Below are positions 49,739 through 61,114 of a stretch of DNA of 64,000 nt, one piece after another (position 1 is the stretch's first letter; the number at the start of each line of letters is the position of its first letter). Source of the stretch: Verrucomicrobiia bacterium (GTDB lineage: Bacteria; Verrucomicrobiota; Verrucomicrobiia; Limisphaerales; Fontisphaeraceae). The translations under genes and the position numbers were made by a program. The notes under the pieces were generated by a model that saw only the letters and a list, made by a program, of their open reading frames with translations, made no database searches and had not been told where the DNA came from. The DNA lies in NCBI GenBank assembly GCA_026414565.1, contig JAOAIT010000018.1, positions 124,001 to 188,000 on the forward strand. Reading direction: 5' to 3'.

Positions 49739-50143
49739 ATGGGCAAAACTTATTATCTCGACCTGGTGTATCTGGCGGCTTTCGCCTTCGGGGGGTTGTT
49801 GTTCGCCCTGGCCCCGGTGGTGCTGGGGAAGCTGCTGTCGGCCCGGCACACGCGGCAATCGGCCAATAAAACCGGCCAGTTTGTGGAGTGTGGCATGGAT
49901 CCCATTGGCGATGCCTGGATTCGCTACAGTGCGGTGTATTATTTGTATGCCTTGATTTTTGTGGCCTTCGCTGTGGATGTGCTCTTTTTGATTCCGGTCG
50001 CGCTGGTGTATGACCGCGAATTTGCCTGGCGCGATCTGGTGGAGGTGCTGCTTTTTGTGGGGATCCTGTCCCTGGTCATTGTGTACGCCTGGAAGAAAGG
50101 AATTTTTGAATGGACCCGGAAGTCCAGTGCTCCCAGATCGTGA
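49739..50143 (+). CDS. nuoA: NADH-quinone oxidoreductase subunit A
   Basis: 134 aa membrane subunit of complex I. Three hydrophobic segments are visible (about residues 8-32, 66-90 and 98-118). The conserved region between the first two contains '[11 protein letters not shown]', matching the NuoA 'YECGxxP...' motif, and '[13 protein letters not shown]', a typical second helix with its acidic residue. It begins the complex I operon; its end overlaps nuoB by 34 bases, so the two are translationally coupled. Confidence 0.95.
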
Positions 50144-50628
50144 AGTTTGCCCGGCTGGAGGACCTGCTGGCCCTTGGACGAGCCAACTCGTTGTGGCCAT
50201 TGACTTTCGGACTGGCCTGCTGCGCCATCGAGATGATGGCCGCGGGGGCCTCGCGCTTTGATCTGGCGCGCTTTGGAGCCGAGGTGTTTCGCCCCTCCCC
50301 GCGGCAGGCCGATGTCATGATCGTGGCCGGGACCATTACCAAAAAAATGGCGCCGGCGGTAAAGACGTTGTACGACCAGATGCCAGAGCCGAAGTGGGTG
50401 ATTGCCATGGGCAATTGTGCCATTTCCGGCGGGCCGTTCGTGTACCCCGGCCAATATTCCGTGGTGGAGGGGGTGGACAAACTGTTTCCTGTGGACGTGT
50501 ACATTCCCGGCTGTCCGCCGCGACCGGAAGCGCTGATCGAGGGGATTTTAGCGTTGGAAAAGAAACTGACCGGCAAACGGCGATGGCCGGAGGTTAAGCC
50601 GCCGCCGGCCTCGGAGCCGGTGGCCTAA
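50110..50628 (+). CDS. nuoB: NADH-quinone oxidoreductase subunit B
   Basis: 172 aa. It carries the N2 [4Fe-4S] cluster, the last one before quinone, with ligands Cys37, Cys38, Cys103 and Cys135 in 'LACCAIE', 'GNCAISGG' and '[10 protein letters not shown]'. Length is usual. It overlaps nuoA, and nuoC follows 11 bases later. The presence of intact N2 ligands shows the quinone-reducing Q-module is functional in principle. Confidence 0.97.
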
Positions 50629-50639
50629 ACAATTTAATT

Positions 50640-51119
50640 ATGAGCATAAATAATACTAATACACCAAAGGAGGTGGCGTCCCCCCTGCGACCAGGGGTGC
50701 ATCCTTTGGCCCATCTCGCCCTTCCTTTTGAGGCGGTGGATTATCATCGCCGCGGCGTTCATTTCGAGGCGCAAGTGGAGCCTGCGCAGGTGGTGCTGGC
50801 TGCGGTGCTCATGGATCAGGAGGGCTTTGCCCTGGATGCGGTAACCGGAGTGGACTGGCCGCAGGACAATCAGATGGAGGTGATTTATGATTACTTCCAT
50901 CCGGCACTGGGCTGGCGGGCGGCGGTACGGACGCGAGTTTCCCGGGGTTTGCCGGAGGTGCCCTCCATTTCCGCAATCTTTCCCGGCGCGAACTGGCATG
51001 AGCGCGAAGCCTGGGAATTTTTTGGCATTCACTTTACCGGGCATCCCAACCTGACGCCCTTGTTGTTGCCCGATGACGCGGACTACCACCCCTTGCGGAA
51101 AGACTTTGCGGCTGCATGA
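50640..51119 (+). CDS. nuoC: NADH-quinone oxidoreductase subunit C
   Basis: 159 aa Q-module subunit, separate from NuoD as in most bacteria. The signature '(A)NWHEREAWEFFGIHFTGHPNL' region around residues 115-140 is the family hallmark (WHERE-type motif), and the C-terminus 'DADYHPLRKDF' fits. It is shorter than the 200-aa E. coli-type domain at the N-terminus. The stop overlaps the nuoD ATG by 4 bases. Confidence 0.95.
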   Translation: MSINNTNTPKEVASPLRPGVHPLAHLALPFEAVDYHRRGVHFEAQVEPAQVVLAAVLMDQEGFALDAVTGVDWPQDNQMEVIYDYFHPALGWRAAVRTRVSRGLPEVPSISAIFPGANWHEREAWEFFGIHFTGHPNLTPLLLPDDADYHPLRKDFAAA

Positions 51120-52249
51120 CGCCTGCTGAGGCCATTGAGGCCGCCCGCCGGGCGGGGAACGAAACCTTCATTCTCAACCTGGGGCCGCAGCATCCGGCCA
51201 CCCACGGCGTGTTGCGCATCAAGTTGACGATGGATGGCGAGTACATTTTGCGGGCTGAACCTGTTGCCGGGTACATCCATCGGATGCACGAAAAGATGGG
51301 GGAAAATCGTACCTGGGCCCAATACCTCCCCAACACCAGCCGCATTGATTATCTCTCCGCCATGACCTACACCCATGCCTATGTAGCGGCGGTGGAGCGG
51401 GCGGCGGGCATTGAAGTGCCACGACGGGCAGAGTTTATTCGCGTCATCACTTCCGAATTGAACCGCATTTCCAGTCACCTGGTGTGGTTTGGCGCCTTTT
51501 TGCTGGACCTGGGCGGCTTTACGCCGCTGCTGTATGCTTTTGATGACCGGGAAAAAATTCTGGACATGCTGGAGGCCATCACCGGCTCGCGGTTGACCTA
51601 CTGTTATTATCGTTTTGGCGGGGTGTACAATGATGTGGATGACGCCTTTTTAAGCGCGGCCCGGGATTTTGTGCCATACATGCGCGAGCGTCTGAAAATG
51701 TATGAAACCCTGGTGACCGAAAACCTCATCCTGCGCAAGCGCCTGGAGGGCATTGGCCCCATCAGCAAAAAGATGTGCCAAAAGTATGGTGCCACCGGGC
51801 CGGTCATGCGCGGCTCCGGCATAGCTTATGATGTGCGGCGCATGGAGCCTTACTCGGTGTACCCGGAATTGGAGTTTGATATTCCCAATTATCCAGAGGG
51901 GGACTGCATGGCCCGTTATCGGGTGCGGATGGAGGAAATGGCGCAAAGTCTGCGCATCATAGAACAGGCTGTAGCCATGATTCCTGCCGGGCCATTTCAA
52001 ACGCCGGGAGTGCCCCGCGCACTCAAACCGCCGCCGGGCGACTATTGTTTTGCGGTCGAGGCGGCCCGCGGACGTCTGCTGGTGCGGATTGTCAGCGACG
52101 GCAAGGAAATGCCCTATCGGGTGCGCTGGCGCACCCCGTCCTTTTGCAACATCACGCTCTTTGAGGAAGCCAGCCGCGGCATGATGCTGGCGGATGCGCT
52201 GGCCTTATTGGGCAGCCTGGATCTGGTAATTCCGGATATTGATCGCTAA
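51116..52249 (+). CDS. nuoD: NADH-quinone oxidoreductase subunit D
   Basis: 377 aa 49-kDa-type Q-module subunit that forms the quinone pocket with NuoB. It contains the conserved 'GPQHPATHGVLR' near residues 23-34, with the His residues lining the quinone site, 'NRISSHLVW' near 117, and the C-terminal 'DGKEMPYRVRWRTPSF' and 'SLDLVIPDIDR', typical for the family. Length is somewhat below the 400 residues common in the family. It follows nuoC with a 4-base overlap and precedes nuoH by 2 bases. Confidence 0.97.
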   Translation: MTPAEAIEAARRAGNETFILNLGPQHPATHGVLRIKLTMDGEYILRAEPVAGYIHRMHEKMGENRTWAQYLPNTSRIDYLSAMTYTHAYVAAVERAAGIEVPRRAEFIRVITSELNRISSHLVWFGAFLLDLGGFTPLLYAFDDREKILDMLEAITGSRLTYCYYRFGGVYNDVDDAFLSAARDFVPYMRERLKMYETLVTENLILRKRLEGIGPISKKMCQKYGATGPVMRGSGIAYDVRRMEPYSVYPELEFDIPNYPEGDCMARYRVRMEEMAQSLRIIEQAVAMIPAGPFQTPGVPRALKPPPGDYCFAVEAARGRLLVRIVSDGKEMPYRVRWRTPSFCNITLFEEASRGMMLADALALLGSLDLVIPDIDR

Positions 52250-52251
52250 AA

Positions 52252-53241
52252 ATGAGTCTCCCAGAACCCATACGCCTCATGGCTTACCTGTTCGGCCTTA
52301 TGGCCTTTGTGGGGCTGAATGCTGCGTATCTGGTTTGGGCCGAGCGCAAAGGTTCCGGCCGCTTTCAACGCCGGCTGGGGCCAACGGAGGCGGGGTTTGC
52401 CGGCTTGTTGCAGCCCATAGCCGACAGTATCAAGCTGCTTACCAAACAACTCCTGGTACCGCCCACCGTGGATGGGGTGTTGTTCCGCACCGCCCCCCTG
52501 CTGGTCATTATTCCGGCCATGGTCAGCCTGGCGGTCATTCCCTTCAGCGACTCGCTGCTGGCGCGCAACATTCATTTGGGATTGCTGGTGGTCTTTTCCT
52601 TCGGCTCCATCCACGTGCTGGCAGTGATGTTGGCCGGGTGGGCATCACGCAACAAATACGCCATCATCTCCGCCGCGCGGGTGGTATCGCAAAATGTGGC
52701 CTACGAAATCCCCATGCTTTTGGTGGTCATTACCCTGCTCATGAGCACCGGCACCACGAACCTGGTGGAAATTGTGCAGCAACAGGCCGGTCCATTTTGG
52801 AAGTGGAACATTTTCCGCCTGGATCACAATCCTCTCGCCCCGGTGACGTTTCTGGTGTTCTACATTTGCATGCTGGCGGAAACCAACCGGGCCCCTTTTG
52901 ACATGGCGGAGGCGGAAAGCGAGCTGGTGGCGGGCGCCATAACCGAATACTCCGGTATGGGCTTCGGGGTTTTCTTCATCGGAGAGTACGCCAACGTGCT
53001 GGTGGGTTGCGCCCTGGCCACCTTGCTCTTTCTGGGGGGCTGGCAAAGTCCCATCGGGATTTTGCCTGGAGCCTTTTGGTTTTTGCTCAAAATGTATGTG
53101 CTGATTTTTGCCGTCATGTGGGTGCGCTGGACGTTTCCCCGCACCCAATTCTACACGTTATTGAACCTGTCGTGGAAAGTGCTGATCCCCATTTCGCTGG
53201 GGACGCTGGTGCTGACCGCCATCACTTTGAAACTGTTTTAA
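52252..53241 (+). CDS. nuoH: NADH-quinone oxidoreductase subunit H
   Basis: 329 aa, about eight transmembrane helices. The hallmark cytoplasmic loop 'NRAPFDMAEAESELVAG' with the acidic cluster (near residues 207-225) and 'EYSGMGFGVFFIGEY' are present. NuoH anchors the Q-module to the membrane arm and forms the entrance of the quinone channel and the start of the proton path. No residue oddities were noticed. Confidence 0.97.
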   Translation: MSLPEPIRLMAYLFGLMAFVGLNAAYLVWAERKGSGRFQRRLGPTEAGFAGLLQPIADSIKLLTKQLLVPPTVDGVLFRTAPLLVIIPAMVSLAVIPFSDSLLARNIHLGLLVVFSFGSIHVLAVMLAGWASRNKYAIISAARVVSQNVAYEIPMLLVVITLLMSTGTTNLVEIVQQQAGPFWKWNIFRLDHNPLAPVTFLVFYICMLAETNRAPFDMAEAESELVAGAITEYSGMGFGVFFIGEYANVLVGCALATLLFLGGWQSPIGILPGAFWFLLKMYVLIFAVMWVRWTFPRTQFYTLLNLSWKVLIPISLGTLVLTAITLKLF

Positions 53242-53248
53242 TGATGCC

Positions 53249-53794
53249 ATGAAAAGCGCCCATGATTTCTGGAAGGGATGCCTAAGCCTCTGGGCGGGGC
53301 TGCGGGTGACCTTGCGCGAGTTCTTCAAGCCCCCGGTCACCGAGCAATACCCCTACGAGGCGCCCCAGATCCCTCCACGTTTTCGCGGGCACATCGAGCT
53401 GGTGCGCGATCCCAAAACAGGCGAACCGATTTGCTTTGCCTGCAAGGCCTGCGAGAAAGTCTGCCCCAGCGACTGCATCGTGGTGGAGGGGGAGAAAAAG
53501 CCGGGCGCCAAACGCAAATCGGTGACCGTGTTCAAACTGGATTTTACCAAGTGCAGTTTGTGTGGCTCCTGCATCGAGGCCTGCAAAAGCGGCGCCATTC
53601 GTTTTTCCAAAGATTACAACTTGGCCGGCTTCTCCCGGGAGGAGTTTATCATGGACCTTTTCAAGCGTCTGGAGGAAGAAGCCCAAAACCAGCCGCCCGC
53701 ACCGCCGCCCCAGCATGAGCCTGGGGCGGAGGCGCGAGCGCCAGCGAAGACGCCGGATGTGGTCGTGGTCACAGTAGAAGGGCAGGGGAGGTAA
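53249..53794 (+). CDS. nuoI: NADH-quinone oxidoreductase subunit I
   Basis: 181 aa ferredoxin-like subunit with two [4Fe-4S] clusters. The first motif is Cys62, Cys65, Cys68, Cys72 with a second-cluster Cys76; the other is Cys102, Cys105, Cys108, Cys112. The second motif is followed by Lys-Ser instead of the common Pro. The N-terminal 35 residues are the usual membrane-associated amphipathic part. A Pro/Ala-rich C-terminal tail of about 35 residues is longer than in typical NuoI. It directly follows nuoH; its stop shares a base with the nuoJ start. Confidence 0.96.
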   Translation: MKSAHDFWKGCLSLWAGLRVTLREFFKPPVTEQYPYEAPQIPPRFRGHIELVRDPKTGEPICFACKACEKVCPSDCIVVEGEKKPGAKRKSVTVFKLDFTKCSLCGSCIEACKSGAIRFSKDYNLAGFSREEFIMDLFKRLEEEAQNQPPAPPPQHEPGAEARAPAKTPDVVVVTVEGQGR

Positions 53795-54345
53795 TGGCTG
53801 TGCTGGGCATGTTGGGTGAAGGTGCCGCCGAGCTGAGCATCGCGGCCCTGTTCTGGTTTTTCGTCGTGCTGGCTGCGGGAGGGGCGCTGATTGCAGTGCT
53901 GACCACCCGGGTGATTCGCAGTGTTTGTGGACTGGCCATTTGTTGTCTGGGACTGGCCGGTCTTTATTATTATCTGCACAGCCCGTTTCTGGCGCTGATG
54001 GAAGTGCTCATCTACATCGGCGCCGTCTGTGTCACCATTGTCTTTGCCATCATGCTGGCTGAGCCGGATGAGCCCCCGCCGGCGCCCCGCACGCGGGCCA
54101 CCTGGGTATGGGCCATGCTGATGCTGGTGCCGGCGTTTGGGGTGTTTCTGCTGCTCAGTCACCTCAGTCTGGCCGGACCCTGGCCTGCCCTGGGCGAGAC
54201 GCGGGCTGACGATTCCCTCAAAGCGGTGGGGCTGGCTCTTCTGACGAAATACTGTCTGGCGTTTGAGCTGATTTCGCTGGTGCTGCTGGCCGCCATTCTG
54301 GGGGCGCTGGTGGTGGCGCGCGAAGGGCGCACAAGAGAACACTGA
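53794..54345 (+). CDS. nuoJ: NADH-quinone oxidoreductase subunit J
   Basis: 183 aa, about five hydrophobic segments, matching the NuoJ pattern, with 'LEVLIYIGAVCVTIVFAIML'-type third helix (here 'MEVLIYIGAVCVTI', near residue 70). It begins within the nuoI stop codon. NuoJ's third helix is important for coupling between the Q-module and the antiporter-like subunits. Nothing unusual was noticed. Confidence 0.94.
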   Translation: MAVLGMLGEGAAELSIAALFWFFVVLAAGGALIAVLTTRVIRSVCGLAICCLGLAGLYYYLHSPFLALMEVLIYIGAVCVTIVFAIMLAEPDEPPPAPRTRATWVWAMLMLVPAFGVFLLLSHLSLAGPWPALGETRADDSLKAVGLALLTKYCLAFELISLVLLAAILGALVVAREGRTREH

Positions 54346-54346
54346 T

Positions 54347-54664
54347 ATGCCCGCTTATCAAAAACCCGAAGTTTATCTGGTATTGGCGGCTTTTCTGCTG
54401 GCCGCCGGTATCTTTGGCCTGTTGCGCCGGCGTACGCTGGTGGGGATGCTCATCTCCGGAGAGCTGATCTTTTCCGCTGCGGCGCTCAATTTTGTGGCGC
54501 TCAATCACTTTCATGCGCCGGAACCGGCGCAAGGCCAGATTTTTGTGTTGTTCATCATGGGGTTGGCGGCTGCCGAGGTGTCCATTGCCCTGAGCATCAT
54601 TATTGCGGTGTATCGCAATTACCGCTCCATTCAGACGCGCGACCTCACCGATTTGAAGGGATAA
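54347..54664 (+). CDS. nuoK: NADH-quinone oxidoreductase subunit K
   Basis: 105 aa with three transmembrane helices, the usual size. Conserved acidic positions are present, including Glu in 'LISGELIFSAAALNF' (helix 2) and 'GLAAAEVSIALSIIIAVYRN' (helix 3). It follows nuoJ with a 1-base gap. NuoK connects NuoH/J to the antiporter-like subunits. Confidence 0.95.
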   Translation: MPAYQKPEVYLVLAAFLLAAGIFGLLRRRTLVGMLISGELIFSAAALNFVALNHFHAPEPAQGQIFVLFIMGLAAAEVSIALSIIIAVYRNYRSIQTRDLTDLKG

Positions 54665-54670
54665 CCGGTC

Positions 54671-56146
54671 ATGGAAAGCGCCCACGATGTCCGGCTGTTA
54701 TTAGCCCTGCTGGCCCCCCTGTTGGGAGCGGGGCTGGTGCTGTTGAACCGCCAGCATCCCAACCGGCGTGAAGCCGGCTCGCTGGTGGCGGCCGTGGCGT
54801 TGCTGGCCATCACTTTGTCGCTGCTGCCGGAAATCAAGGCGGACCGCAAACTGGTCTATACTCTTTTTTCCTTGCTGCCGGGGCTGAGCATCAGCCTGCG
54901 CGCGGATGCCTTGTCCATGCTTTTTGCCGTCACAGCCTCCGCCTTGTGGGTGGTCACCGTTTTTTATTCCGCGGGTTACATGCGGGGTCTGCGTGAGCAT
55001 GCCCAGACACGCTTCAATGTGTGTTTTGCGCTGGCTTTGTTTGGGGCCATCGGCTGCGCCTTCGCGGATAATTTGCTCACCCTGTATCTCTTTTACGAAA
55101 TCATCAGCATCACCACCTATCCCCTGGTGGCCCATCATCAGGATGAGGAAGGATATACAGGCGGTAAAAAGTATCTGACCTATCTGACTCTGACGGCCAA
55201 AGGTCTGGTGCTGCCCGCCATGGCTGCAATCTATGCACTAACCGGCACATTGGACTTTGCCGACAACATCCGGCCCGGTATCTTGCCAGCAGACACCTCG
55301 CGGCTGGTCTTTACATTCTTATATGTCGCCTGCCTGCTGGGATTCGCCAAAAACGGCATCATGCCTCTTCATCATTGGCTGCCCGGGGCCATGGTGGCTC
55401 CGACGCCGGTGAGCGCCTTGCTGCACGCTGTGGCGGTGGTCAAGGCAGGCGTGTTTGCCACGGTACGCGTCATGTTGCACGTATTTGGCACGGAGCGGAT
55501 GGAGGCTTTTGGTCTGGGACTGCCCACGGCGTATTTTGTGGCCATTACGATTGTTGCGGCCTCAGTCATCGCCCTCAGTCAGGACAACTTGAAATTGCGG
55601 CTGGCCTACTCGACCGTGAGCCAGTTGTCGTATATTATTTTAGGGGTGGCCTTGTTGACCCCTGCCGCCATCGAAGGGGGGCTGGTCCATATTGCCAACC
55701 ATGCGTTCTCCAAAATTACACTCTTCTTCTGCGCGGGCGCGATCTATGTCGCCACTCACAAAAAAAACATCTCTGAGATGGCCGGGCTGGGCCGTGCGAT
55801 GCCTGTAACCTTTGGGGCATTTGCAATTGCTTCACTCAGCATGATCGGAGCGCCCCCCGTGGCGGGTTTTGTCACCAAGTGGAATCTGCTTCTGGGTGCA
55901 TGGGATGCGAAGTCCGTCCTCATCATCGTCGTGTTATTGGCGAGCACACTTTTGAACGCAGCCTATTTCGTGCCGGTTGTCTATCAAGCCTTCTTTCGTG
56001 CCTTCCCGGAAGGCGAGACTCAACCCCATGTCCGCGAGGCCCACCCGGCGATGGTGGTGCCGTTGGCGATTACCGCCGGAGTGTCGGTGGTCCTTGGGTG
56101 TTACCCTGATTTCTTCATGCGCCTGACGCAGGCGGTGCTGCCATGA
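54671..56146 (+). CDS. Antiporter-like complex I subunit (NuoL/MrpD-type, no lateral helix)
   Basis: 491 aa, about 14 transmembrane segments. Key residues of the proton channel are present: Glu in 'LYLFYEIISITTYPLVAHH' (helix 5), Lys in 'GFAKNGIMPLHHWLP' and a second Lys in 'VAVVKAGVF' (helices 7-8), and 'HAFSKITLFF' (helix 12). The C-terminus stops at about helix 14, with no lateral helix as seen in NuoL, so it resembles MrpD or NuoM rather than NuoL. It is the first of four antiporter-like genes in the operon and starts 6 bases after nuoK. The extra copy is the main reason to suspect a higher pumping stoichiometry. Confidence 0.88.
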   Translation: MESAHDVRLLLALLAPLLGAGLVLLNRQHPNRREAGSLVAAVALLAITLSLLPEIKADRKLVYTLFSLLPGLSISLRADALSMLFAVTASALWVVTVFYSAGYMRGLREHAQTRFNVCFALALFGAIGCAFADNLLTLYLFYEIISITTYPLVAHHQDEEGYTGGKKYLTYLTLTAKGLVLPAMAAIYALTGTLDFADNIRPGILPADTSRLVFTFLYVACLLGFAKNGIMPLHHWLPGAMVAPTPVSALLHAVAVVKAGVFATVRVMLHVFGTERMEAFGLGLPTAYFVAITIVAASVIALSQDNLKLRLAYSTVSQLSYIILGVALLTPAAIEGGLVHIANHAFSKITLFFCAGAIYVATHKKNISEMAGLGRAMPVTFGAFAIASLSMIGAPPVAGFVTKWNLLLGAWDAKSVLIIVVLLASTLLNAAYFVPVVYQAFFRAFPEGETQPHVREAHPAMVVPLAITAGVSVVLGCYPDFFMRLTQAVLP

Positions 56147-56403
56147 AACTGGTCCAACTCATTGAATGGTTAAGGGCGCGCTTGCGCCTGGTGATCAAGG
56201 TCTGTTTGGGCGTGCTGGCGACGTTGGTGGTTTTGGACGCCCTGCCGGCCATCGTGGACAAGAGCCACGCCCACACGGAGGTGGAAAAGTGGCCGGGGTT
56301 CTGGGCGGTTTTCGGGTTTGTTGGATGCGTCTTTCTAATCGTGGCATCCAAGGCCTTTGGCAAGCTGGGCATCATGCGGGAGGAGGATTACTACGATGAG
56401 TAA
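56143..56403 (+). CDS. Small membrane protein between two antiporter-like subunits
   Basis: 86 aa, ATG overlapping the preceding stop by 4 bases, and overlapping the next start by 8 bases. Two hydrophobic segments ('IKVCLGVLATLVVLDALPAIV' at about 19-38 shortened here, and 'GFWAVFGFVGCVFLIVASKAFG' pattern at about 52-72) with a loop rich in His and Glu. It is not a NuoK homologue by eye. I do not recognise the family; the position makes it a likely accessory subunit of the extended membrane arm. Confidence 0.85.
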   Translation: MKLVQLIEWLRARLRLVIKVCLGVLATLVVLDALPAIVDKSHAHTEVEKWPGFWAVFGFVGCVFLIVASKAFGKLGIMREEDYYDE

Positions 56404-58183
56404 TTTCTGGCTGCATCCCGCCCTCATTCTGGTTTTAGGCGCGCTGGCTCTGCCCTGGATTCCGGCGCGGGCACGCAAGCTCTGGCTGCTGGCGGTGCCG
56501 CTGCTGACGTTCTGGCGGGTGGCCCAACTTACACCGGGCGTGCAGGGGGAGCTGGGATTTTTGCAGTGGACACTGGTGTTTGGGCGTGTGGATGCGCTGA
56601 GTCAGATCTTCGGTTACATCATGGGGTTGGTGTGTGTCATAGCCACGCTCTATGGCCTGCACGTCCAGGAGGCTGGCCAGCACAGCGCAGCATGGTTTTA
56701 TGCCGCCGGCTCCCTGGGGGTCATTTATGCGGGGGATTTTCTGACTTTGTTTGTGTTTTGGGAGCTGATGGCCTTTGCGTCGGTTTTTTTGATTTGGTAC
56801 CGGCGTGAGCCTCGTGCCTTGGCGTCTGGTTTCCGATATCTATTGGTACACGTGGCCGGCGGTTTGTCCTTGCTGGCTGGCATTGTTTTGCATCATGGCG
56901 CCACAGGCAGCCTGGCATTTGAGTCGTTTCCTGCCAGTCAGGGGAATGCAGCGGGCTGGCTAATTTTGGCAGGATTTCTTTTGAATGCGGCCGTGCCGCC
57001 CTTGCATGCCTGGCTGCCGGATGCCTACGCTGAAGGCACATTCAATGGTTCGGTCTTTCTGTCCGCTTTGACCACCAAGACTGCGGTGTATGCCTTGTGC
57101 CGCGGGTTTGCGGGGTGGGAGATACTCGTGCCGTTGGGGGTCATCATGGCTTTGTACGGCGTGGTTTATGCAGTTTTGGAAAATGACTGCCGCCGCCTGC
57201 TGGCCTATCACATCATCAGTCAGGTGGGGTACATGGTGGCAGGGGTGGGCATGGGCACGGCCATGGCCATCAATGGCGCGTGCGCTCATGCCTTTGCCCA
57301 CATTCTCTACAAGGGCTTGCTGTTTATGGGATGTGGCGCAGTCTTGCACATGACCGGGGAGAGCCGCTTTACGGGCCTTGGGGGATTGTACAAGAAGATG
57401 CCCTGGACTTTCTTGTTTACTTTAATAGGTGGCTTGTCCATTTCAGCGTTTCCCTTGTTTAGCGGCTTCGTGAGCAAATCCATGATTGTGGCCGCGGGAT
57501 TTCAAGAGCACCGCCTCTGGGCGGCTTATTTGTTAATGCTGGCCTCGGTGGGTACGTTTCTGCATACCGGGCTGAAGGTGCCATACTTTATCTGGTTTGG
57601 ACAAAACCGCTGCCGTGCGGAGACGTGGCAGCGCGCTACGGATCCGCCATGGAACATGAACGCAGCTATGGCCATTGCCGCATTCCTCTGCATTTTCATC
57701 GGTGTTTACACTCCCTATCTCTACAATATGCTGCCTCATCAAGCGGCGGTGGCCAGCTATCATCCTTACACGGCTTATCACGTTTCGGAGACGCTGCTGG
57801 TGCTCTTGTTCACAGCGGTGGGATTCTTTCTTTTGCTCAAGAAACTCGAACCCACCCCCACCGTCAGTTTGGACCTGGACTGGTTCTATCGCATGGCTGG
57901 GCGCGCCTTCTTACGGCTGGCCGAGGGGCCCGTGCAACGGGCCGACGCCTGGGTGGGGACACTTTATCAAAACCTCGGTCTGGCCGGTTTGATGCGCACG
58001 GCGCGGCTCACGGGGCAATTTGATCAGCGCGTCATTGATGGCGCCGTGGATGGCCTGGCGGCAGCCGTTGCGGCTGTAGGAGCGCGGATGCGAATGATTC
58101 AACGCGGGCACTTACAGGAAAGCCTCGCGCTGGCTTTCGCGGCTGCAGCGGTGCTGCTGCTTTTATTCCTCTGGTTCTGGTAA
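56396..58183 (+). CDS. Antiporter-like complex I subunit with NuoL-like C-terminal extension (MrpD-type)
   Basis: 595 aa from the ATG at 56396 (MSNFWLHP...), overlapping the 86-aa gene by 8 bases. The channel Glu is present in 'TLFVFWELMAFASVF'. The helix-7 region reads 'LLNAAVPPLHAWLPDAY' where a Lys is usual (Asn instead), as in some Na+/H+ antiporter-D-like proteins. After the 14-helix core an amphipathic stretch (about 490-575) with 'QRVIDGAVDGLAAA' and 'MIQRGHLQESLAL' leads to a final membrane helix, closely like the lateral helix of NuoL. This is therefore the NuoL-equivalent distal subunit, although its core is MrpD-like. Confidence 0.87.
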   Translation: MSNFWLHPALILVLGALALPWIPARARKLWLLAVPLLTFWRVAQLTPGVQGELGFLQWTLVFGRVDALSQIFGYIMGLVCVIATLYGLHVQEAGQHSAAWFYAAGSLGVIYAGDFLTLFVFWELMAFASVFLIWYRREPRALASGFRYLLVHVAGGLSLLAGIVLHHGATGSLAFESFPASQGNAAGWLILAGFLLNAAVPPLHAWLPDAYAEGTFNGSVFLSALTTKTAVYALCRGFAGWEILVPLGVIMALYGVVYAVLENDCRRLLAYHIISQVGYMVAGVGMGTAMAINGACAHAFAHILYKGLLFMGCGAVLHMTGESRFTGLGGLYKKMPWTFLFTLIGGLSISAFPLFSGFVSKSMIVAAGFQEHRLWAAYLLMLASVGTFLHTGLKVPYFIWFGQNRCRAETWQRATDPPWNMNAAMAIAAFLCIFIGVYTPYLYNMLPHQAAVASYHPYTAYHVSETLLVLLFTAVGFFLLLKKLEPTPTVSLDLDWFYRMAGRAFLRLAEGPVQRADAWVGTLYQNLGLAGLMRTARLTGQFDQRVIDGAVDGLAAAVAAVGARMRMIQRGHLQESLALAFAAAAVLLLLFLWFW

Positions 58184-59683
58184 ATGCCTGAATTGATTTA
58201 CAACAATGGATTTCCCTGGTTGAGCGTGCTGATTTTCAGTCCGCTGGCAGCCTTGACGGTGTTGCTGCTCTTGCCGGGAGAACGGGCGCAACGCTGGTGG
58301 ACGCTGCTGTTCACCAGCGCGGCGTGCGTGGTTTCGTGGGCTTTGTATTTCCAATTCAACACGCAAACCGCGGCATTTCAGTTGGTCGAGCGGCACCCCT
58401 GGATTTCACCCTGGCGCATTTACTACACCGTTGGCGTAGATGGCCTCAGTCTGTGGTTGGTTCTGTTAACCACCCTGGTTATGCCGCTGTGCGTGCTGGC
58501 CTCATGGGCCTACATTCAGACCCGCGTCAAAGAGTTCCTCGCCTCCCTTCTGCTGATGGAGACTGCGATGCTGGGGGTTTTTTGCGCGCTGGATTTTGTG
58601 CTCTTTTTTGTCTTTTGGGAGGCCATGTTGATCCCCATGGCCCTGATTGTCGGGGTATGGGGTGGCCCGCGTAAAATTTATGCTGCCTTGAAGTTTTTTG
58701 TTTATACGATGGCGGGGTCGGTATTCTTATTGGTGGCCATCATTGCGTTGTATCTCAAGACAGGATCATTTCACATCCCGGATCTCATGAATCGCGGCTT
58801 CGATGCCCCCTTTCAATTCTGGGTGTTTTTGGCGTTTTTCATATCTTTCGCCATCAAAGTGCCCATGTTTCCCTTCCACACGTGGTTGCCGGCTGCCCAT
58901 GTCGAGGCCCCCACGGCCGGCAGTGTGCTGCTGGCCAGCATCCTGCTCAAGATGGGCACCTATGGTTTCGTTCGTTTCAGCCTGCCCATCACTCCGCACG
59001 CCGCCCAGGTTTTTGCCCCAGCCATTCAATGGCTCTCCGTGGTGGCGATCATCTATGGCGGCCTGACCGCTCTGGCGCAAACCGACATGAAGAAATTGGT
59101 GGCCTACTCCAGCGTGGGGCACATGGGTTTCGTCACGTTAGGAATTTTCACCTTTACCAGCGGGGGATTGGAAGGAGCAATGTTGCAAATGATCAATCAC
59201 GGGATCACCACGGGGGCTTTGTTTATTGGGGTGGGATTGTTGTACGAGCGCCTGCATACCCGGGAAATGAACGCGGCGGCTGGATTGGGGAAATACATGC
59301 CCATTTTTATCACTGCCTTTGGCGTGTTTGCCCTGTCCAGCATGGCCTTTCCAGGGACCAATAGCTTTGTCGGCGAGTTTCTGGTTTTAAGCTCGGCTTT
59401 TGCGTCTGTGCCGGTGGTGGCGGTGGCGGCTGTGCCGGGAGTCGTCATTGCCGCGGCTTACCTTTTGCGGCTGCTGCAGCGCTTGGCGTGGGGGGGCACG
59501 CAAAACCCTGATCACACGGGCCTCAGGGATTTGGATTGGCGTGAAGTTCTGGCTTTATTGCCGCTGTTTATTTTAGTGTTTTGGCTGGGGTTAAAACCCG
59601 GGCCTTTTGTGGAAGCCATGCGGCCCAGCTTGGTGCTCCTGCTTCAGCAAGTTAAAGCCGGGATGCCTGTGCCCGGATTGTAG
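58184..59683 (+). CDS. nuoM: NADH-quinone oxidoreductase subunit M
   Basis: 499 aa, 14 transmembrane segments. Typical NuoM features include 'YTVGVDGLSLWLVLLTTL', the channel Glu in 'FFVFWEAMLIPMALIVG', Lys in 'AIKVPMFPFHTWLPAAHVEAPTAGS' (split here: AIKVPMFPFHTWLP, then AAHVEAP) and 'LVAYSSVGHMGFV'. It follows the NuoL-like gene with no gap. All expected charged residues for proton translocation are present. Confidence 0.96.
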   Translation: MPELIYNNGFPWLSVLIFSPLAALTVLLLLPGERAQRWWTLLFTSAACVVSWALYFQFNTQTAAFQLVERHPWISPWRIYYTVGVDGLSLWLVLLTTLVMPLCVLASWAYIQTRVKEFLASLLLMETAMLGVFCALDFVLFFVFWEAMLIPMALIVGVWGGPRKIYAALKFFVYTMAGSVFLLVAIIALYLKTGSFHIPDLMNRGFDAPFQFWVFLAFFISFAIKVPMFPFHTWLPAAHVEAPTAGSVLLASILLKMGTYGFVRFSLPITPHAAQVFAPAIQWLSVVAIIYGGLTALAQTDMKKLVAYSSVGHMGFVTLGIFTFTSGGLEGAMLQMINHGITTGALFIGVGLLYERLHTREMNAAAGLGKYMPIFITAFGVFALSSMAFPGTNSFVGEFLVLSSAFASVPVVAVAAVPGVVIAAAYLLRLLQRLAWGGTQNPDHTGLRDLDWREVLALLPLFILVFWLGLKPGPFVEAMRPSLVLLLQQVKAGMPVPGL

Positions 59684-59698
59684 AGACAAACGGTTCTA

Positions 59699-61114
59699 AT
59701 GCTGTCCTTCATCACATCTTACCTGCCTGAGCTGGTGCTGCTGGCCGGAGCGCTGGCCTTGTTTTTGGTGACCTTGGGTGAACGGCAGGGCAAGCTTGCC
59801 CGGCGTGTTGCACTAGGGGTGGCTCTGGCCACCATCCTGGGTTCCGTCGTGGCACTGCCGGCGGAAAACTTGCTTTTCGATGGCGCCTATCGGGTGGACG
59901 GTTTCTCGCAAATTCTCAAGCTGTTTCTGGCGTTGGGACTTTTTCTATCCCTATTGGCGGCAGGCGGTTTGCAGGACATTCCGGCTGACTTTCGCCCAGA
60001 ATTTTATTTATTCACCGTCCTGAGCGGATTTGGCCTGGTCACACTGGTAAGCTGTGTGGATGTGCTTACACTGGTGGTGGCTTTGCAGATGGCGTCGTTT
60101 CCTCTGTATCTTCTGGTGCCGCTGCGACGCGAACGTGAGGGCCAGCGCGCCCAGATGGAGTCCGCCGCCAAATACATTATGTTTGGCATCGCCGCCAATG
60201 GCATCATGTTGTTTGGGCTGAGTTATCTTTATGGCATCACAGGGGCCACCGCCTTGCCGGCTTTAATGCAAAAGCTGCGTCCTTTTGCGGAATCCCCGCT
60301 GGCCCTGGCCGGTCTAACGCTGACCTGTTGCGGACTTTTTTACAAGCTGGCCGTGTTTCCTTTCCATTTCTGGACGCCGGACGTCTATCAGGGCTCCTCC
60401 AACGAATCCGCGGCCATCATCGCGTCATTGCCCAAACTCGGCGCGGTGGCCGTTTTAGCGCGTCTGACGGCCCTGGCCACCCCGGATAACCCCCGTTTTG
60501 CCCTGCTGCTGGCGGTGCTGGCCGCGGCCTCCATGTTTTATGGCAACCTGGCCGCTTTGGTGCAGACAGACCTCAAACGGTTGCTGGGCTTCAGCGGCAT
60601 TGCTCACGCCGGCTACACGGTGGTGGGCTTGGTGGCATTGGATCGGGATGGCCGCGCCGCCGCCTTATACTATCTCTTTGCCTATCTCTTCATGATCCTG
60701 GCCTGCTTCGTGGTAATATGCGGCGTTTCCCGGGAAGGGCGCAACGTGGCCCTGGGAGAGTTGGCCGGACTGCATCGGCGCTCGCCCCTGTTGGCCTGGA
60801 CCCTTTTAGTGGGCGTGTTCGGCCTGGCAGGAGTGCCGCCGCTGGCGGGGTTTATTGGGAAGCTGGCCCTTCTCAAGGCGGCACTGGCTCAAGGGTGGTT
60901 GTGGCTGGTGGTGCTCACGGTCATCAACAGCGCCATCGCCATCTACTACTACTTGCTGCTAATCCGCGAGGCGTTCTTCCGGGAGGCCGATAACTCCGCC
61001 CCGTTGGAATTAGATGCTTCGGCCACCTGGCTTTGTTGGTTGCTCACCCTGGGCATTCTCGCCCTTGGAGTGTTCCCCGGCCGAATTCTCGCGCTGTTGA
61101 GCATGGTGGTCTAG
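59699..61114 (+). CDS. nuoN: NADH-quinone oxidoreductase subunit N
   Basis: 471 aa, about 14 transmembrane segments. NuoN features include Lys in 'GLFYKLAVFPFHFWTPDVYQG' (here 'YKLAVFPFHFWTPDVYQG' near residue 220), 'SSNESAAIIASLPKLGAV' and 'TDLKRLLGFSGIAHAGY'. It starts 15 bases after nuoM and closes the operon, with a T-rich hairpin at the stop codon. No nuoE, nuoF or nuoG is present in the operon. Confidence 0.96.
   Translation: MLSFITSYLPELVLLAGALALFLVTLGERQGKLARRVALGVALATILGSVVALPAENLLFDGAYRVDGFSQILKLFLALGLFLSLLAAGGLQDIPADFRPEFYLFTVLSGFGLVTLVSCVDVLTLVVALQMASFPLYLLVPLRREREGQRAQMESAAKYIMFGIAANGIMLFGLSYLYGITGATALPALMQKLRPFAESPLALAGLTLTCCGLFYKLAVFPFHFWTPDVYQGSSNESAAIIASLPKLGAVAVLARLTALATPDNPRFALLLAVLAAASMFYGNLAALVQTDLKRLLGFSGIAHAGYTVVGLVALDRDGRAAALYYLFAYLFMILACFVVICGVSREGRNVALGELAGLHRRSPLLAWTLLVGVFGLAGVPPLAGFIGKLALLKAALAQGWLWLVVLTVINSAIAIYYYLLLIREAFFREADNSAPLELDASATWLCWLLTLGILALGVFPGRILALLSMVV

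Follow-up and report, generated by a model that had tools for sequence, protein, structure and literature searches.

The closest described relative of the operon analyzed here is the green complex I of rhizobia (Degli Esposti and Martinez Romero, 2016, as summarized in PMC9040806 and PMC7415380), whose genes on two rhizobial plasmids, from Sinorhizobium and Rhizobium, follow the order J-K-X-small-Y-M-N-A-B-C-D-E-F-G. Further relatives are 2M complex I (Chadwick et al., 2018, as summarized in PMC6606698 and PMC7117926) and the 11-subunit complex I, for which ferredoxin or PFOR is the suspected electron donor (PMC11238625).

The window, i.e., the whole 64,000-nucleotide stretch of DNA that was analyzed, is from a Verrucomicrobiia bacterium and carries a complex I operon that an earlier note, made from the sequence alone, had described as an arrangement it did not recognize. 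Two MrpD-like subunits with a small gene are, however, the arrangement of rhizobial green complex I. The X-S-Y-M-N arm is known, NCBIfam models for X and Y exist, and the operon is an EFG-less variant.

Gene Content of the Operon

The operon has the order nuoA-B-C-D-H-I-J-K-X-S-Y-M-N and spans positions 49739-61114 on the + strand. X, S, and Y designate the genes for the 491-, 86-, and 595-aa products between nuoK and nuoM. The genes are as follows:

49739..50143, + strand: nuoA; NCBIfam nuoA matches
50110..50628, + strand: nuoB; TIGR01957 with 234.8 bits, above the cut-off of 142.7
50640..51119, + strand: nuoC, separate from nuoD; TIGR01961 with 96.4 bits, below the cut-off of 122.45, and operon position
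51116..52249, + strand: nuoD of the Q-module, 377 aa; NF004739 with 448.5 bits, above the cut-off of 360, and NuoD tree
52252..53241, + strand: nuoH; NF004741 with 320 bits, above the cut-off of 305
53249..53794, + strand: nuoI, two 4Fe-4S clusters; Fer4 matches
53794..54345, + strand: nuoJ; PF00499
54347..54664, + strand: nuoK; PF00420
54671..56146, + strand: X, NuoL/MrpA-type antiporter-like subunit without lateral helix; NF006236 with 774.8 bits, above the cut-off of 663, TM8 His, model, and tree
56143..56403, + strand: S, small protein between X and Y; 93 homologs, alignment, and dN/dS of 0.125
56396..58183, + strand: Y, MrpD-like subunit, 595 aa from ATG, with lateral helix, TM16, and Asn197; NF009310 with 743 bits, above the cut-off of 564, alignment, and model
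58184..59683, + strand: nuoM; TIGR01972 with 589 bits, TM7 Lys present, TM12 Glu as in NuoM
59699..61114, + strand: nuoN; TIGR01770 with 332.9 bits against a cut-off of 332.6

NuoB, NuoD, NuoH, NuoM, and NuoN exceed at least one curated NCBIfam cut-off, and NuoI, NuoJ, and NuoK were assigned via Pfam domains. NuoA and NuoC score below cut-off, yet all of their matches are to NuoA and NuoC families. The antiporter domain PF00361 matches X, Y, M, and N with 161-267 bits each, in agreement with the four antiporter-type subunits counted in the earlier note, and all 13 genes lie where that note had placed them. Homologs of NuoE, NuoF, and NuoG were not found in the 64-kb window, which bears out their reported absence from the operon; the operon lacks the NuoEFG of canonical 14-subunit complex I and holds the full set of the 11-subunit family (nuoABCDHIJK plus M and N).

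Compared with a complete genome of the same genus (G288), dN/dS ranges from 0.008 to 0.125 over all 13 genes and is 0.037 for Y. These low values, which indicate purifying selection, together with a gene order kept in dozens of genomes, exclude chance open reading frames and pseudogenes. In NuoN of this operon, the TM5 glutamate is replaced by Gln (VVALQM), a substitution found in 2 of 75 NuoN sequences.

Subunit Identity and Key Residues of X and Y

Alignment of X revealed the TM5 Glu, the TM7 Lys (87/87), the TM8 His typical of NuoL and MrpA (87/87), the TM11 Lys, and the TM12 Lys. In Y, the TM5 Glu and the TM12 Lys are present, and Asn occupies the position of the TM7 Lys in all 94 sequences, among them those from rhizobia and from Mrp contexts; in the window Y, this residue is Asn197. 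Mutants of E. coli have established that the TM7 lysine is important for pumping.

A phylogeny of the four antiporter subunits, proposed as a check in the earlier note, placed X near NuoL/MrpA and Y in a clade of its own. X is sister to the clade holding NuoL and MrpA, with support of 94/86, just below threshold; the separate clade of Y has full support, M and N are true NuoM and NuoN, and X and Y sequences from an Mrp context are nested within the complex I-context clades. The description of both subunits as MrpD-like therefore holds for Y, whereas the TM8 His and the tree mark X as NuoL/MrpA-like. Structure comparison gave tied matches for the fold of Y, with Z 43.8 to NuoL (8e9g_L; rmsd 9.5 over 527) and Z 43.2 to MrpD (7qru_D; rmsd 2.4 over 441).

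Since Y has Asn instead of the TM7 Lys in 94/94 sequences, four equal pumps are not assured, and the higher ion pumping expected in the earlier note becomes doubtful. We tentatively consider that X-S-Y may be a portable distal module in which Y serves as an ion gate or another coupling element (e.g., for Na+), which would give a complex with four antiporter-like subunits and no extra proton.

Length of the Lateral Helix

AlphaFold modeled a single continuous helix at residues 496-568 of Y (73 residues; mean pLDDT 88.3 for the model and 55-84 along the helix) and no lateral helix in X (pLDDT 88.5), as the earlier note had proposed for both proteins. For comparison between families, helix length was anchored by motif and counted from the initial D-x-x-Y to the Gly preceding TM16. 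Measured in this way, the lateral helix has 51-53 residues in canonical NuoL (31/31), 77 residues in 2M NuoL (6/6), and 77-79 residues in Y from complex I operons (84 untruncated sequences), with 77 in the window Y. The helix of Y shows the extension by about 25 residues known from 2M complex I, and 77 residues is the length expected for spanning four antiporter-like subunits. Two independent routes to four antiporter-like subunits have arrived at equal helix length. MAFFT did not bring the initial motif of Y into register with that of NuoL.

The tail of Mrp-context Y proteins comprises 77-80 residues, does not contain the IDGxVDG motif, and has more prolines. With tails of similar length in both contexts, length by itself does not set complex I apart and is weaker as proof of complex I membership.

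Proposed Architecture and Electron Donor

S has two membrane stretches, predicted by eye, and a conserved HAHT...EDYYD motif. It matched no family in Pfam or NCBIfam, and lies between X and Y in every locus in which both are complete.

In our view, the operon probably encodes an EFG-less complex I, i.e., a ferredoxin- or other-carrier:quinone oxidoreductase, with the green membrane arm, in which H-J-K would be followed by N-M-X-Y, the helix of Y would run back along these four subunits, and S would probably sit at the X/Y junction. We infer that all four antiporter-like subunits belong to one complex in the order N-M-X-Y. Reduced ferredoxin, or a different soluble carrier, would most likely deliver electrons to NuoI, from which they would reach quinone at the NuoB/D/H site; this transfer would drive N, M, and X, with Y as the terminal subunit that holds the helix.

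The genome contains three 2-oxoacid:ferredoxin oxidoreductase loci, which suggests that reduced ferredoxin is probably available. Clustering of the flanking open reading frames of related loci revealed no conserved donor gene beside the operon: the clusters were antisense artefacts or lineage-level neighbors (murC-, rimP-, nusA-, and infB-like, as judged by eye), and molybdopterin/NuoG-like or GltD-like proteins flank only a few loci. The claim of a non-standard donor stands as a reading of a sequence with no NADH module, and ferredoxin is a plausible candidate for this role.

The same architecture could also work in reverse and spend the ion-motive force to reduce ferredoxin with electrons from quinol. 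Such a direction was proposed for two other enzymes, the EFG-less 2M complex I of Nitrospira and Complex_I_3 of Manganitrophaceae with its five pumps (PMC9040806, PMC6606698), but these precedents are carbon fixers that use the reductive TCA cycle, and we regard reverse operation as unlikely here.

NADH Input Module in the Genome and in Related Loci

The genome (4.3 Mb, 71 contigs, 97% complete) yielded 18 antiporter-domain matches and, by gene content, three complex I sets: a canonical one, an EFG-less 2M complex I, and the operon in the window. The canonical set is split between contig C44 (B, C, D, E) and contig C4 (F, G, H-N), and their complementary gene content suggests that both parts form one canonical enzyme. 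NuoF is found once in the genome, on contig C4 beside NuoG and the canonical H-N; NuoE follows NuoD on contig C44. The EFG-less 2M complex I is encoded on contig C9 (L034, 229001-249000) in the order A B C D I H J K L M M N.

A second PF01512 gene, on contig C38, was rejected as NuoF, as it is RnfC/PduS-like and adjoins a BMC shell gene. The one-contig genome G288 has two PF01512 genes, and the only NuoF accompanied by NuoG lies in its canonical cluster; a second NuoEFG hidden in assembly gaps was rejected as far as this genome permits.

Several other loci of the genome were observed in passing. The RnfC/PduS-like gene and the adjacent shell gene on contig C38 (L039, 7570-9609) likely mark a bacterial microcompartment locus. 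Three further sets of NuoD-, NuoB-, and antiporter-like genes on contigs C44, C38, and C53 (L037, L038, L040) probably encode a group 4 hydrogenase or related enzymes, and a further set resembles an Mrp antiporter. At the position of the TM7 lysine, the canonical NuoM of the genome (L035:1941-3497, contig C4) carries Leu. The same replacement, mostly within ILVSLWPFH, occurs in the canonical NuoM of all relatives examined (L137-L166), and the second NuoM of 2M complexes likewise has Leu at TM7; the two copies from the genome are sisters in the tree.

A genome scan detected 80 related loci, nearly all from Verrucomicrobiota or Deltaproteobacteria/Desulfobacterota by title, and most of those that are long enough have the order A-B-C-D-H-I-J-K-X-S-Y-M-N. 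Most related loci show no adjacent EFG set. In L115, E, F, and G are immediate neighbors of the operon; near L119 and L131-L133, there is a gene for a NuoG-like or molybdopterin protein; the L059 and L109 contigs carry NuoE/F-like genes, and the L080 contig a NuoG-like one. In the NuoD tree, the sampled EFG-less operons group together with 100/100 support, and rhizobial NuoD as well as the NuoD of L133 and L119 lie outside this clade. The exception is the NuoD of L090 (Desulfocapsa), which lies on a long separate branch.

These data bear on the alternative that the complex borrows the canonical NuoEFG and, as green complex I does in rhizobia, oxidizes NADH and reduces quinone with four antiporter-like subunits in its membrane arm. 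One NuoEFG set is indeed present in the genome, and the rhizobial relatives carry EFG in their operon. However, the only NuoF and NuoG of the genome adjoin the canonical HIJKLMN, adjacent EFG is missing in most members of the clade, and the EFG-less NuoD clade is apart from rhizobial and EFG-associated NuoDs, so that we judge such borrowing to be quite improbable.

Distribution and Portability of X-S-Y

Among 288 genomes sampled from the phylum, 13 have a match above cut-off to NF009310, the family of Y; so do 8 of 58 near relatives, whereas the 14 controls have none. The order K-M-X-S-Y-N was found in L090 and in L096 (Desulfobia); the NuoD of L090 is divergent, as though a different complex I had acquired an X-S-Y module.

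X-S-Y accompanies Mrp-type genes in several genomes, some of them from Desulfobacterota (L053, L054, L097, L098, L099, L103, L106). Five of these loci (L054, L097, L098, L103, and L106) combine X-S-Y with an MrpD-like gene and have no complex I gene. Four loci (L053, L099, L106, and L103) yielded one Mrp partner apiece, namely MnhB, E, F, and G. X-S-Y acts like a portable cassette that extends to Mrp antiporter operons, and the NuoD tree together with the X/Y tree suggests that it has been combined with different redox arms, EFG-less ones as in the window and EFG-bearing ones as in rhizobia and some Desulfobacterota.

It is very improbable that X-S-Y of the window is an Mrp-type cation/proton antiporter in its own right, sharing no more than a transcript with a shorter complex I: X-S-Y does occur with MnhB/E/F/G in operons of other genomes, but here the operon would be left without any NuoL, MnhB/C/E/F/G are missing among its genes, and Y has the complex I-type helix with the IDGxVDG motif that Mrp-context Y proteins lack. 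The earlier note had named a nuoEFG set elsewhere, combined with X as part of a separate Mrp antiporter, as the finding that would count against its reading. The first half is found, though in an apparently separate canonical complex I, and X lies outside any Mrp operon in the genome.

Comparison With Known Complexes

An EFG-less complex I with four antiporter-like subunits bears on how low-potential electrons enter the respiratory chains of anaerobes. It also provides a natural case for asking whether every antiporter-like subunit contributes one translocated ion and what role the lateral helix has. Helix length follows the number of subunits, with 52 residues for three and 77 for four, and as Y lacks a lysine regarded as central to pumping, the number of pumps may be separable from that of subunits.

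Mrp antiporters share X-S-Y in some of their operons and resemble the core of Y in MrpD, whereas the operon in the window has redox subunits; MnhB/C/E/F/G partners were not found among its genes. The 11-subunit complex I likewise combines ABCDHIJK with antiporter subunits, does without NuoEFG, and has ferredoxin as suspected or known donor, but it has three antiporter subunits (L, M, N) compared with four here (PMC11238625). In Complex_I_3 of Candidatus Manganitrophaceae, two green-type MrpD-like subunits also replace NuoL; unlike the enzyme described here, it has five antiporter-like subunits, including two NuoM, and an extra 26-residue insertion in the lateral helix (PMC9040806). The 2M complex I, as outlined in the sources cited above, agrees in its four antiporter-like subunits, in its 77-residue helix, and in that EFG can be missing, but it has a second NuoM in addition to NuoL. 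Here, a single NuoM gene is present and X-S-Y takes the place of NuoL.

Green complex I, as far as those sources describe it, shares the J-K-X-small-Y-M-N order including the small gene, as well as two MrpD-like subunits in place of NuoL, and the window X and Y exceed the cut-offs of NF006236 and NF009310. The rhizobial operon ends with ABCDEFG and keeps the NADH module, whereas the operon in the window begins with ABCDHIJK and has neither NuoEFG nor a NuoD of the rhizobial type, its NuoD falling into another clade. Given the missing EFG and the separate NuoD clade, we class this complex as a variant that shares the green membrane arm.
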